Positions 45,144 to 51,336 of a stretch of DNA of 64,000 bases are shown piece after piece. Numbering within the stretch: the stretch's first letter is position 1; the number at the start of each line of letters is the position of its first letter. The stretch comes from Sphingomonadaceae bacterium (GTDB lineage: Bacteria; Pseudomonadota; Alphaproteobacteria; Sphingomonadales; Sphingomonadaceae). Location: contig JASBUR010000031.1 of NCBI GenBank assembly GCA_030147805.1, positions 1 to 64,000 on the forward strand, read 5' to 3'. The notes under the pieces were generated by a model. It had not been told where the DNA came from. It ran no database searches and saw only the letters and a list, made by a program, of their open reading frames with translations. The position numbers were made by a program, and so were the translations under genes.

Positions 45144-45700
45144 CTATCGCCGGCAGAGCATTTCGCGCAGCGGGAACGCGCAGCCGCGTGCCGCACTGCG
45201 CGTCGACGATGTTCGACACCTGCGCGCACGCCCGGCCGGCATAGGCGGCGCCGCCAAAGCCGGCGCGCTCGCAGAACGCGCGCGCCGCGGTCAGGTCGTT
45301 GGTGCCCGCCGACACCTGGATGCGGCCGAGCGTCGGCCGCGCGAAGAAGGTCACATCCTTCCCGCTGACGCCGTCGCCGGCATCGAGCTGGTCGAGGTCG
45401 ATGCCCGGCGCGTCGACGCCTAAGCCCTCGTCCGCGGTAGCGCGGGTCGGCCGCAGCGAGGCGACCGCGGTGCGGCGCAGATAGGGCCGGTTGCTCGTCG
45501 TGTAGCTCTGGCAGCCGCCGGCATAGCTCGCCGCACCGCAGATCTCCCACTCGCCGACGATGCGCGCGCTCTGCGCCCGCCGGGGCGAAGCCCAGCGGCG
45601 CGAGATCGGGGGAAGTGGCGGGGTGACCACCACCGAGCGGCCGAGAAAGCCGGGCAGTTCGTAGAGCGTGACGCTCGGCGTGGTGCCGGTCTCTGCCGCG
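45144..45700 (-). pseudogene. Beta/gamma-crystallin-like domain protein, apparently frameshifted and missing its native N-terminus
   Basis: SVTLYELPGFLGRSVVV...ARIVGEWEICGAASYAGGCQSYTTSNRPYLRRTAVASLRP; conserved-looking C-terminus VPLREMLCRR* is in another frame. Confidence 0.6.
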
Positions 45701-45709
45701 GCTCTTCCG

Positions 45710-46168
45710 TTAGTTAGGAAATGCGACGCTAGGACCGCGCTTATCGTAACAGACCACCGTGCTATTGTCGGTCCCAAATCCCCTCTCGTAGCCGACTCCC
45801 CTGCAAAATTTCTCGGCAGCGTCGTTGGCGAAGTTTTGGCGGTTCAGGTCTTTTGTTGTGCAGCCGCCCTCGCACACTGCTCCCGAAATCTGAATCGCAG
45901 ACTTTGTGGACACGTAATTTCGAACATTTGCCAAATCTTCTCGCATGACGGACACATGCGGGACCATTTTGGCGGCGTCCGAGGCAACCGAGTCAAGCCT
46001 CAGCCTGGCAGTCGAAAGCTCTGTTTTGATAGATAACAGGTCAGCCTTCATGGCGGCTACGGCAGCTCGGAGTGCCCTCACTTCTGACAGGAGTCCGCCA
46101 TCGTCGGGTGCCGCCAACGCGGGATAAGCACAAACGCCTACCATTACTGCGAACAATGCCAATTTCAT
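45710..46168 (-). CDS. Hypothetical secreted coiled-coil protein with C-terminal Cys-containing domain
   Basis: MKLALFAVMVGVCAYPALAAPDDGGLLSEVRALRAAVAAMKADLLSIKTELSTARLRLDS...AVCEGGCTTKD...EKFCRGVGY...TVVCYDKR; lower GC than flanks. Confidence 0.65.
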   Translation of the reverse strand: MKLALFAVMVGVCAYPALAAPDDGGLLSEVRALRAAVAAMKADLLSIKTELSTARLRLDSVASDAAKMVPHVSVMREDLANVRNYVSTKSAIQISGAVCEGGCTTKDLNRQNFANDAAEKFCRGVGYERGFGTDNSTVVCYDKRGPSVAFPN

Positions 46169-46309
46169 GCTCTGGACCTTTCGCAGATGAGGAAAGAAGA
46201 TTGGCATGGCGTGAAGCTGGGCCACCATACGTTCGATTACGGTAGGTATTCGGCGGCCCATTAGAGATTTGCGGAGGCGCGACTTGCTGCCGAAAGGTGT
46301 AGACGTACA

Positions 46310-46536
46310 CTAACTAGCCAACGCGCCGCACACCTGGTACTCGCCGCTGACCGGAGCGCTCTGTTCCCAGTTGGCGAAGCCCTGCGTCGCAAGATCGCGG
46401 GGGGAGGCGGTGATGGTCGCCGAGCGCCCGAGAAAGCACGGCAGCTCATAGAGCGTGAAACTCGACGCGGTGGTCTGCGCCGTGGCGATCCCAAGCGGCG
46501 GCGCGACACGGCGGCGGCGAGGATCGGGATAGGCAT
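46310..46536 (-). pseudogene. Truncated beta/gamma-crystallin-like gene remnant
   Basis: Minus-strand frame IATAQTTASSFTLYELPCFLGRSATITASPRDLATQGFANWEQSAPVSGEYQVCGALAS*, paralogous to the 45.1-45.7 kb product, out of frame with the upstream ATG. Confidence 0.6.
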
Positions 46537-46627: not shown

Positions 46628-47254
46628 CTAGTCCTCTTTCGCTACGACTCCGGTTATCTCAGGCTTTCGATCATAAATTTTGTAAGTCAGATAATACAAG
46701 CTTCTTCCGCTTGTTAGTACGAGGTGAGAGATCGGCACTAAGCACAATAGTTTCGCTAGAAATGATGACACATCGTAGGCAGGTATCGAAAAATTACCAA
46801 TGATGAGATATTTGCCATGTATTGCGCTCGCCAATGCTGAAGATAAACCCGAGCAAGCTGCAGAAAGAAGGGATAATAACAAGCTTAGAAACGCTAGATA
46901 CCCAAACATGGAAAGGACGTAATCCCTTCGGGTGAGCTTAACTCGATCTGTGTTCGGCCTTCCCCAGAAGGCCTCTCCAGTTTCGATGTGATCGTCGAGT
47001 GTTGATCCTGCGATTAAAAAAGTAGCAACTGCTAAGAGTCCAGCGATGTAGAATCCCGTCAACGCTGATGCAAGCGATCCTATCCGATCAAGGAAACCAT
47101 CAGTAGAAAAAAAGGCGGAATGAGGCATCAAATGAAACAGAGTTGCAATTAATGTGGAGACGATCAGGATTATCCACAAATCACGGACAACAAAAAGCCT
47201 TCCGTCATCACTGCGGATCTTGAGATATCTAAAACTGAAGAGCATCATTGGCAT
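46628..47254 (-). CDS. Hypothetical membrane protein with about four TM segments
   Basis: DLWIILIVSTLIATLFHLMP, ASALTGFYIAGLLAVATFLIA, VLSMFGYLAFLSLLLSLLSAA, FLAKLLCLVPISHLVLTSG; AT-richer than flanks. Confidence 0.75.
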   Translation of the reverse strand: MPMMLFSFRYLKIRSDDGRLFVVRDLWIILIVSTLIATLFHLMPHSAFFSTDGFLDRIGSLASALTGFYIAGLLAVATFLIAGSTLDDHIETGEAFWGRPNTDRVKLTRRDYVLSMFGYLAFLSLLLSLLSAACSGLSSALASAIHGKYLIIGNFSIPAYDVSSFLAKLLCLVPISHLVLTSGRSLYYLTYKIYDRKPEITGVVAKED

Positions 47255-47260
47255 GATGTT

Positions 47261-48193
47261 TTAAATCGCTCTAATCGCCTTTGAGATGAAATCATCGACA
47301 ACCTTGTCAGTACATACTGCCAGGTCAACCGTTGTGTTAACTTCCGCCGATCTTATAAAGAGGACCTCTTTAGCCTCCTCCCCTCTGGCGATAGATATGC
47401 GCCTCGATCTTTCGTCATCGAGTTCAATATCAATCTGAAAATCCTCCCAGCCGGCGCGTCTAGCGCTCTTTGCTAAATTGCCGATTTTTTCTGCCCAATC
47501 CTTTGGGCTAACCTTGCCTTTGACTCTAATCTTCATCTTTTCATGAACCGGCTTGAAGAAATCTTCAGAATCGATGAATTTAGCGCGAGCCGGCCTGCTA
47601 AGCGTTATAAAGCCAAAATTTCCAGTCTTCAGTGCATTAGTAACTGACTCAGATTTGACGCCTTCAGGTCGAAAGACTGTGTAAGTGCTCTGGTCATCAC
47701 CGCGATTATCTTTGTAGTTATAATCGTAATCGCGAAGAACCTTTCCGATGATGGGTTGGACCAAACTCATGCTTAGGCCGGGAATTTCTTCTAGGATGGC
47801 GTCATAAACGCCATTGCGCACCGCCTTCGGCAGAATGATGAGATGCGCCGAAACCGATTGTTCCTCGTCGGGCTTCTTATTGACAGTGCGAAGATGAAGG
47901 GCGGCGCGGGCCTTTCGACGGTACATGGGATCGGCAGCCTTCGGACTCGCTCTGTGAATGAGCGCCACAATGGCGCCTGTCGCGGCGTGTACGTCGATGC
48001 TCATCATTTCGATAACGTCGCTGTTTGGGCGAACGTCGATGGCCTTGTTTCGCCTAACAGCCTGCTGCAGTGCTGCGAGGATGCTCGGCTTACCTGTAGC
48101 ATCGACAAGCGGAAGCGTCGGACCACTCTTGCGCCGCGGCACGAACGAGAATCTGTAATGCCGTATGAACCGGTGTCTTTTCTCCAGAAACAC
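47261..48193 (-). CDS. Hypothetical soluble protein, 310 aa, first gene of a two-gene module
   Basis: GTG start with GGGGGGG upstream; 6-nt gap to the membrane-protein gene; no family recognised. Confidence 0.75.
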   Translation of the reverse strand: MFLEKRHRFIRHYRFSFVPRRKSGPTLPLVDATGKPSILAALQQAVRRNKAIDVRPNSDVIEMMSIDVHAATGAIVALIHRASPKAADPMYRRKARAALHLRTVNKKPDEEQSVSAHLIILPKAVRNGVYDAILEEIPGLSMSLVQPIIGKVLRDYDYNYKDNRGDDQSTYTVFRPEGVKSESVTNALKTGNFGFITLSRPARAKFIDSEDFFKPVHEKMKIRVKGKVSPKDWAEKIGNLAKSARRAGWEDFQIDIELDDERSRRISIARGEEAKEVLFIRSAEVNTTVDLAVCTDKVVDDFISKAIRAI

Positions 48194-48297
48194 AGATTCC
48201 CCCCCTTTGTTAGAAGCTGGGAGACTTCACAGTTCCGACATAGTGGTCAACGCTTGATCACATCCAGACAGCCATTTTGATCCGGTTCGGAGCCTTC

Positions 48298-51200
48298 TTA
48301 CTCCGCCGCCACCCGCTCCGCCGCCGCCGCCTTCTTCCCCAGCAACGGCTTCAAATACCCGCCCGTATAGCTCCGCGCCGTCGCCGCCACCTGTTCGGGC
48401 GTCCCCTGCGCGACGATCTCGCCGCCCTTGGTGCCGCCCTCGGGCCCCAGGTCGATGATCCAGTCGGCGGTCTTGATGACCTCGAGATTGTGCTCGATCA
48501 CCACGACGGTATTGCCCTGCTCGACGAGCGTGTGCAGCACCTCGAGCAGCTTTCGCACATCCTCGAAATGCAGCCCGGTGGTCGGCTCGTCGAGGATGTA
48601 GAGCGTGTTGCCGGTGGCGCGCCTGGACAGTTCCTTGGCGAGCTTGACGCGCTGCGCCTCGCCGCCCGACAAGGTCGTCGCCTGCTGGCCGACCTTGACG
48701 TAGCCGAGGCCGACCTCGTGCAGCATCGCCATCTTCTCGCGGATGCTCGGCACCGCCTTGAAGAATTCGACCGCCTCCTCGACGTTCATGTCGAGCACGT
48801 CGGCGATGCTCTTGCCCTTGAAGGTGACCTCCAAGGTCTCGCGGTTGTAGCGCTTGCCGTGGCAGACGTCGCAGGTAACGTAGACGTCGGGCAGGAAGTG
48901 CATCTCGATCTTGAGCACGCCGTCGCCCTGGCACGCCTCGCAGCGGCCGCCCTTGACGTTGAAGCTGAAGCGCCCGGCCTTGTAGCCGCGCGCCGCTGAC
49001 TCGGGCAGGCCGGCGAACCAGTCGCGGATCTGGGTGAACGATCCGGTGTAGGTCGCGGGGTTGGCGCGCGGGGTGCGGCCGATCGGCGACTGGTCGATGT
49101 CGATGACCTTGTCGAGATATTGCAGCCCCTCGATGCTGTCGTGCGCACCGGCGTGGATGCGCGCACCGTTCAGGCTGCGCGCCGCGGCGGCATAGAGCGT
49201 GTCGATGGTGAAGGTCGACTTGCCCGATCCCGACACGCCGGTGATGCAGGTGAAGGTGCCCAAGGGGATCGAGGCGCTGACGTTCTGGAGGTTGTTCGAG
49301 CGGGCGCCCTTCACCGTCAACTTCCTGCCATTGCCCTTGCGGCGCTTGGCCGGCACGGGGACGGCGCGGCGGCCGGCGAGATAGTCGCCGGTGATGCTGT
49401 CGGGGTTCGCGAGGATCGCCTCGAGAGTACCCTCGGCGATGACATGGCCGCCGTGGATGCCGGCGCCCGGCCCCATGTCGACGATGTGGTCGGCGCTGCG
49501 GATCGCGTCCTCGTCATGCTCGACGACGAGCACGGTGTTGCCGAGGTCGCGGAGGCGCTTGAGCGTTTCGAGCAGCCGGTCGTTGTCGCGCTGGTGCAGT
49601 CCGATCGACGGCTCGTCGAGCACGTAGAGCACGCCCGACAGCCCCGAGCCGATCTGGCTGGCGAGGCGGATGCGCTGGCTCTCGCCGCCCGACAAGGTCC
49701 CCGACTTGCGGTCGAGGTTCAGATATTCGAGGCCGACGTTGCACAGGAAGCCGAGCCGCTCGACAATCTCCTTCAGGACGCGCTCGGCGATCTGCCGGTC
49801 CTTGTCGCTGAGCTTGGGCATCAGCTCGCTCGCCCAGCCGAACGCCTCGGAGACCGGGCGGCGCGCCGCGTCGGCGATGGTCTCGCCGTCGATCTTCACC
49901 GCCAGCGCCTCGGGCTTGAGGCGGGCGCCGTCGCAGACCTCGCAGGCGCGCGCCGCCTGATATTGCGCCAGCTCGTCGCGGACGGTCGCGCTCTCGGTGT
50001 CGCGCCAGCGCTTCTCGACATTGGCGATGACGCCCTCGAACGCCTTCTTCACCTCGTAGGATTTGCGGCCGTCCTCGAAGCGGAGCGCAATGGGCGTGCC
50101 CTTGGTGCCGTGCAGCACCGCCGCGCGCATCTCGGGCGACAGATCCTTCCACGGCGTCTTGAGATCGGCGCCGAAGTGACGTGCGACACTGGACAAAACC
50201 TGCATGTAATAGGGCGAGGGCGGGTTCGATTTCGCCCAGGGCATCACCGCGCCGGCGGCGATCGACAGCCCCTCGTTGGGCACCACCAGCTCGGGATCGA
50301 AATAGAGTTTTTCGCCGAGACCGTCGCAGCTCGGGCAGGCGCCGTGCGGGCTATTGAACGAGAACAGCCGCGGCTCGATCTCGGGGATGGTGAAGCCCGA
50401 GACCGGGCAGGCGAATTTCTCCGAGAACAGCATGCGGCGGGGACCCCCACCACCCGGCTGCGCCGGGTCCCCCTCCCCCTGAGGGGGAGGATTACCCGCT
50501 CCTCCCCCCTTGGGGGAGGGGGACCGCGAAGCGGTGGAGGGGGCGCCGTCGCCCGGCGAATCGGCGAATTCGAGCACGGCGAGCCCGTCGGCGAGCTTCA
50601 GCGCGGTCTCGAAACTGTCGGCGAGCCGCGTCTCGATGCCCTCGCGCACCACCAGCCGGTCGACGACGACGTCGATGTCATGCTTGTACTTCTTGTCGAG
50701 CGCCGGCGCCTCGTCGATGTCGTAGAACTCGCCGTTGACCTTGACGCGCTGGAAGCCGGTCTTCTTCCACTCGGCGAATTCCTTGCGATACTCGCCCTTG
50801 CGGCCGCGCACGACGGGGGCGAGCAGGTAGAGGCGCGTGCCCTCGGGCTGCTCCATCACCCGGTCGACCATCTGGCTGACCTGCTGCGCCGAGATGGGGA
50901 GGCCGGTGGCGGGCGAATAGGGCACGCCGATGCGCGCCCACAGCAGGCGCATGTAATCATAGATCTCGGTGACGGTGCCGACGGTCGAGCGCGGGTTCTT
51001 CGAGGTCGTCTTCTGCTCGATCGAGATCGCCGGGGAGAGGCCCTCGATATGGTCGACGTCGGGCTTCTGCATGAGCTCGAGGAACTGGCGCGCATAGGCG
51101 GAGAGCGACTCGACGTAGCGGCGCTGCCCCTCGGCATAGATGGTGTCGAAGGCGAGGCTCGATTTGCCCGACCCCGACAGGCCGGTGATCACCACCAGCT

Positions 51201-51336
51201 TGTCGCGCGGCAGGTCGAGATCGACGTTCTTGAGATTATGCTCGCGCGCGCCGCGTACCGAGATGTGCGTCAGCATCGATGTTCCCGCTGTGTTCCGGCC
51301 GAAGAAGGAGGTGACGCAGCCAGCGACGCGAGTCAA
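48298..51336 (-). CDS. uvrA: Excinuclease ABC subunit A (start may be at [17 protein letters not shown])
   Basis: [65 protein letters not shown]...[16 protein letters not shown]. Confidence 0.97.
50437..50555. repeat. C-rich palindromic repeat inserted in frame within uvrA
   Basis: acccccaccacccggctgcgccgggtccccctccccctgagggggagg...ctcctccccccttgggggagggggaccgcgaagcggtggaggggg. Confidence 0.75.

Follow-up and report, generated by a model that had tools for sequence, protein, structure and literature searches.

The two genes located directly downstream of uvrA in the Sphingomonadaceae contig JASBUR010000031.1 very probably encode a RexAB-type abortive-infection system of the PDC-M53 / RexABpp family. 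The analyzed stretch of DNA comprises 64,000 nucleotides and is referred to here as the window. Established at the level of sequence are the family membership, the strict pairing and order of the two genes, the four transmembrane segments of the second protein, the frequent carriage of relatives on prophages and the position in a low-GC defence hotspot. The mode of action is assigned more cautiously, by comparison with a pair from Pseudomonas putida.

The gene pair and its surroundings

The two genes, here called A and B, had been described in a first-pass annotation made from the sequence alone. Its coordinates, strand, protein lengths (310 and 208 aa) and the 6-nt gap between the genes all proved exact (Table 1). 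Genes A and B have GC contents of 0.504 and 0.440, respectively, compared to 0.673 for uvrA, and the corresponding GC3 values are 0.55, 0.44 and 0.92. The whole 1,566-bp A-B block has a GC content of 0.478, which agrees with the earlier description of the pair as lower in GC than the flanking core genes. It is also far below the window mean of 0.688. Among 1,249 overlapping blocks of this length in the window it takes rank 4 from the low end, which is practically the minimum. The pair follows uvrA on the same strand after 104 nt. The GTG start codon of gene A is preceded by a strong Shine-Dalgarno-like run, AAAGGGGGGG, at a spacing of 5 nt.

Hydropathy analysis predicts four transmembrane segments in protein B (residues about 26-44, 64-82, 113-131 and 162-180) and no transmembrane or hydrophobic segment in protein A, so that the reading as a soluble protein plus a four-segment membrane protein holds. 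No phage genes were recognized by eye among the ORFs neighbouring the pair, and a recognizable prophage is absent around it. All tRNAs of the window are distant from the pair.

Table 1 Features of the gene pair and its surroundings in the window
Feature	Position	Strand	Basis
Gene A, putative soluble RexA-like sensor (PDC-M53A family), 310 aa, GTG start	47261..48193	-	PADLOC, AlphaFold
Gene B, putative four-TM RexB-like membrane effector (PDC-M53B family), 208 aa, ATG start	46628..47254	-	PADLOC, BLASTP, hydropathy
Shine-Dalgarno-like run AAAGGGGGGG before gene A	48199..48208	-	Sequence read directly
Gap between A and B, 6 nt	47255..47260	-	Family: median 7 nt, interquartile range 1-12
Junction between uvrA 3' end and module, 104 nt, GC 0.51; upstream edge of the variable site	48194..48297	.	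Position variable in 73 genomes of the bacterial family
uvrA, core gene anchoring the hotspot, outside the module	48298..51336	-	ORF; C-terminal 126 aa used as anchor for relatives

Membership in the PDC-M53 family

Protein A matches three of the PDC-M53A models of PADLOC (2e-14, 9e-6 and 6e-5), and protein B matches PDC-M53B with 4.4e-18 over residues 5-194. The same assignment is obtained for the aligned homologues, with 59 of 59 B proteins and 52 of 53 A proteins matching PDC-M53 in PADLOC. The earlier statement that no family is recognizable in either protein has therefore to be revised, since curated candidate-defence profiles exist in PADLOC for both. PDC-M53 is listed there only as a candidate, without a function. 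It was named in no paper found in our literature search. Neither protein has a significant match in Pfam or NCBIfam, and an affiliation to a housekeeping family, which the first-pass annotation had named as the opposing case, was accordingly not found in these databases. A weak match to SLATT_4 (E 0.07) is below the cut-off and was set aside. Among the solved structures, none matching A or B was found by sequence.

In 147 of 150 non-redundant loci, gene A is located directly upstream of gene B on the same strand, with a median gap of 7 nt. The count of 150 covers the B genes for which sufficient upstream sequence was available, with near-identical copies excluded. The pairing indicates that A and B form one unit, and the co-occurrence of both genes, on which the earlier defence proposal depended, is thereby confirmed. 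Nine columns of protein A are conserved to at least 90% over 53 homologues (R8, L78, P89, R102, E110, H117, E135, G139 and D208), and all nine are kept in the window. Protein B of the window keeps the invariant residues L65, G67, F68, A71, F117 and L120 as well as the near-invariant Y10, D87, L107, R109 and R110, while one near-invariant proline is replaced by S7.

PDC-M53 and RexABpp of Pseudomonas putida

For P. putida, the genes PP_5643/PP_5644 of prophage P1 were described in 2026 as the RexAB-type defence system RexABpp (PMC12894663). Both genes are required against certain phages, and deletion of either sensitizes the host. RexApp binds DNA without sequence preference. An excess of RexApp makes RexBpp toxic, whereby growth stops and the membrane leaks, rather than outright lysis taking place (PMC12894663). 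This toxicity needs RexB, and suppressor mutations map to RexB. Expression of its CI gene is not changed by RexApp, and binding between RexApp and RexBpp was not detected in a two-hybrid assay (PMC12894663). Seven residues of RexBpp were published, and according to the same paper only five RexAB-like systems have been described so far (PMC12894663).

A fingerprint of the published RexBpp residues found nothing in the first locus sets. Five of the seven residues are present in register in a Pseudomonas M53B protein, and a scan with this protein as query recovered the IMG/VR contig 637000222_000004 (L291). It carries a CI-like repressor gene, two small genes, an A gene, a B gene and then hicAB-like genes. 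The A protein has 330 aa and 36.6 kDa (published for RexApp: 37.5 kDa with His tag). The B protein has 188 aa and shows 6 of the 7 published residues in position; T103 is D103 here, with T at position 102. Based on these features and the IMG genome number, which is presumably that of KT2440, we take this contig to be P. putida prophage P1 with PP_5643/PP_5644.

The two proteins of this contig match PDC-M53A with 8.4e-157 and PDC-M53B with 2.8e-72. Protein B of the window is similar to RexBpp with a BLASTP value of 5e-10, and the pairwise comparison of protein A with RexApp gave only 22% identity and an E value of 0.026. With family profiles, hhalign yielded 99.4% for RexApp and 99.9% for RexBpp. 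On the strength of these matches PDC-M53 and RexABpp are one family, a homology claim that depends on the identity of the contig with PP_5643/PP_5644. No paper equating PDC-M53 with RexABpp was found, and the RexABpp paper mentions neither PADLOC nor PDC. The identity of the two is possibly new, as far as the literature was searched. By joining them, one of the five described RexAB-like systems becomes a family of more than 150 non-redundant relatives, and a defence candidate reported by annotation tools without a function receives a name and a testable mechanism.

As a homologous pair, RexABpp shares with the pair in the window the gene order, the protein sizes, the four-TM protein B and the organization as a two-gene operon. 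The identity over the aligned parts is about 22% for A and about 30% for B. RexABpp is located in a prophage, two genes after the CI repressor, whereas the pair in the window stands alone after uvrA and has no CI-like repressor next to it.

Relation to RexA and RexB of phage lambda

In phage lambda, RexA and RexB are likewise a soluble protein followed by a four-TM protein, and in many phages such pairs are found near the repressor. Neither A nor B matched the Pfam families RexA (PF15969) and RexB (PF15968) or the RexA and RexB profiles of PADLOC up to an E value of 10, whereas the lambda proteins, used as control, matched the RexA and RexB profiles with 1e-97 and 8e-92. Direct sequence homology was also not supported by profile-profile comparison (E 0.075 for A and 0.12 for B, not significant in several settings). 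The score of lambda RexA against RdgC, its accepted structural relative, is no better than that of A against RexA. We therefore describe the pair as Rex-like in its action and as belonging to the RexABpp family, a wording that stops short of shared descent with lambda RexAB.

The AlphaFold model of protein A has a pLDDT of 90. That of protein B (pLDDT 91) consists of four long helices and a short N-terminal helix. The best match of model A among solved structures is the yeast kinetochore protein CHL4 (Foldseek probability 0.54), a weak match with a low TM-score. Among viral models, phage RdgC was matched (probability 0.69, also weak) as the first protein after four uncharacterized phage proteins, which presumably are homologues of A. 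The TM-scores with these remote fold matches are 0.2-0.3. The 50 PDB matches listed for model A do not include the RexA structure 8TWQ, and model B has no match in the PDB by fold. For lambda RexA, the structural relatives reported are RdgC, IML3 and CHL4 (PMC11077077), so that the weak fold matches of model A fall on neighbours of RexA. Furthermore, G139 of protein A, which is conserved to 93%, is found at the place of the G140 hinge of RexA, judged by sequence position. Protein B of the window differs from lambda RexB in being about 60 aa longer.

Two-gene prophage defence systems with a RexA-like and a membrane protein are also known from actinophages (Sbash gp30/gp31, CarolAnn gp44/gp43 and Butters gp30/gp31; PMC11077077, PMC12894663). 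Their purified RexA-like proteins, with 337-372 aa, are longer than protein A, and the pairs are set beside the pair in the window by description.

Distribution of the relatives

Scans of phages, plasmids and genome contigs with single proteins gave little, and alignments were required. When IMG/VR was searched with six aligned B proteins, 76 viral loci were obtained, to which later scans added more. The non-redundant relatives belong almost all to Proteobacteria, and prophages carry many of them. Salmonella phage F1055, for example, has the pair immediately ahead of its holin and endolysin genes. According to a PHROG scan of the neighbours, the genes upstream of the pair include repressors and Q-type antiterminators, and those downstream include Q-type as well as holin and endolysin genes. 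When three conservative repressor seeds were used, 11 of 65 viral loci had a CI-like gene on the same strand in the 2.5 kb upstream of the pair, compared to 2 of 65 downstream. Among whole genomes the family was found in 2 of 399 in a phylum sample and in 3 of 61 relatives, the genome of the window being counted in both. Such a rare and scattered occurrence fits a mobile module. The pair in the window has its nearest relatives in other alphaproteobacteria (Parvibaculum, Rhodovulum and Pararhizobium) and on viral contigs.

Some loci deviate from the common arrangement. In enterobacterial prophages (L026-L058), the pair is often placed between a Q-like antiterminator and a holin gene, which is a late-region cargo slot and not a position beside the repressor. 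A prophage copy (L071:6922-8549) has an A gene that is apparently truncated or frameshifted (268 aa, 248 nt before B), and its B protein may be without its activator. On a Microvirga plasmid (L002:12001-12594), no A gene was detected upstream of the B gene, which is a possible orphan.

The 3' end of uvrA as a site for defence genes

The region downstream of uvrA was surveyed in 73 genomes of the bacterial family to which the window belongs (loci L340-L347, L350, L352, L354 and L357-L419). Over these 73 genomes, the mean GC content at 0.5-2 kb from the 3' end of uvrA is 8-9.5 points below that of the far part, and beyond 3 kb it is equal. In 37 of 71 genomes the near part is at least 8 GC points below the far part, while the reverse was found in one (Wilcoxon p 6e-10). 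The drop is confined to within about 2.5 kb after uvrA, and the low-GC genes located there vary from genome to genome. In PADLOC, 86 near low-GC proteins match 439 profiles and 86 proteins located 3.5-7 kb further match 7, a comparison that is indicative only, because the control set is partly redundant, PADLOC profiles overlap and families rather than proteins are counted. The defence profiles matched near uvrA include Old, GajA, AriA, PD-T4-2, PtuA, NsnA, AbiLi and type II methyltransferases. The enrichment of defence genes around the pair, which had been proposed as a check, is present as a hotspot in this bacterial family. A nucleotide comparison of the window DNA downstream of uvrA with relatives gave only short, scattered matches and no clean empty site.

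A second M53AB pair was identified at the 3' site of uvrA in a genome of another genus (G547, L418:4822-6335), with a PADLOC value of 1.5e-20 for A. Relative to uvrA it has the opposite orientation to the pair in the window, and in the tree the two are distant from each other. This distance, and the fact that the window pair has its closest relatives elsewhere, argue for two separate arrivals at the uvrA site. The 3' end of uvrA is likely to be an undescribed, family-wide integration hotspot for small defence modules. Rex-type pairs, usually prophage cargo, would have been recruited there on at least two independent occasions, in the window and in G547 at L418, to provide stand-alone immunity on the chromosome. 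No description of this hotspot was found in the literature, and as far as searched it is possibly new. With uvrA as an easily located anchor, new defence systems could be looked for throughout a large environmental family.

Further genes were noticed by eye at this site, namely an HD-domain protein with a small partner (L350:6118-8008), a NACHT-like protein (L352:5969-7825) and a C5-methyltransferase with a possible nuclease (L401:182-2256). They are regarded as candidate defence modules.

Proposed function

The first-pass annotation had suggested a horizontally acquired defence module. This view is strengthened by the assignment of both genes to one two-gene family of defence candidates, their constant pairing, the relatives on prophages, the tested relative in P. 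putida and the hotspot site. By analogy, we infer that the copy in the window works as RexABpp does. It appears to have left its phage context and to serve the cell now as a stand-alone chromosomal module. Protein A would be the sensor, probably a DNA-binding one, which recognizes a phage-made DNA or protein-DNA state and then engages and activates protein B at the membrane. Protein B, a small four-helix membrane protein, would oligomerize and open or disrupt the inner membrane. The infected cell would stop growing, the phage burst would fail and the infection would be aborted. Each of these molecular steps is put forward with less confidence than the assignment to the class. The diverse set of relatives allows testing of the conserved residues R102, K106, E110, H117, E135 and D208 in A and of the GFxxA and LTRR motifs in B. 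Such tests bear on the 70-year-old question of how RexA senses an infection and opens RexB.

Prophage carriage would also fit a different role, in which the pair mainly tunes the switch between lysogenic and lytic growth, or the host membrane, for the benefit of the phage. Exclusion of other phages would then be a by-product and the copy in the window a stranded leftover. Such a role was proposed for lambda RexA, which biases the CI-Cro switch (PMC11077077), and it is compatible with the position of the pair between Q-like antiterminators and holin or endolysin genes in enterobacterial prophages and next to repressor genes elsewhere. We consider it unlikely, as RexApp has no effect on CI gene expression and the loss of either gene sensitized P. 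putida to phages (PMC12894663). In addition, both genes in the window are intact and keep the conserved residues with no recognized phage genes nearby, and in relatives the site is filled by other defence genes.

The first-pass annotation had also compared the pair with Kiwa. The likeness in protein sizes (soluble protein of about 310 aa, four-TM protein of about 200 aa) and layout stands, as does the opposite gene order, while a kinship is not supported. Protein A has no match to KwaB (PF16162) and protein B none to KwaA in PADLOC and Pfam, and the profile-profile scores are not significant (hhalign E 0.34 and 0.19). The window and 147 of 150 relatives have the opposite of the Kiwa order, in which the membrane gene comes first. 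A Kiwa-like system, in which B senses phage attachment or injection like KwaA and A acts on phage DNA like KwaB, would retain a similar split of roles, and the soluble partner of Kiwa is linked with DNA as in Rex-type pairs. In view of the missing profile matches, the gene order and the tested relative RexABpp, in which B acts as the toxic effector and is activated by A, this reading is very improbable. RexAB is the better analogue, as it shares the order of a soluble RexA followed by a four-TM RexB. Equally improbable is an arrangement as reported for gp30/gp31 of mycobacteriophage Butters (PMC12894663), with A as the antiviral, cytotoxic protein that B sequesters at the membrane until infection, since the toxicity seen with the homologous P. 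putida pair depended on RexB, which is also where the suppressor mutations were located.

DNA adjoining the module

Next to the module, a short coding stretch is present twice, at positions 45584-45685 and 46373-46472 of the window. The two copies have diverged (78-82% identity) and are separated by 787 bp. They are consistent with the decayed crystallin-like genes of the first-pass annotation and are apparently a decayed tandem duplication. Between the fragments, a 183-aa ORF of intermediate GC content (0.545) is located on the minus strand (45710-46261). It has a signal-peptide-like segment and a coiled-coil-like stretch, and could be part of the inserted DNA.
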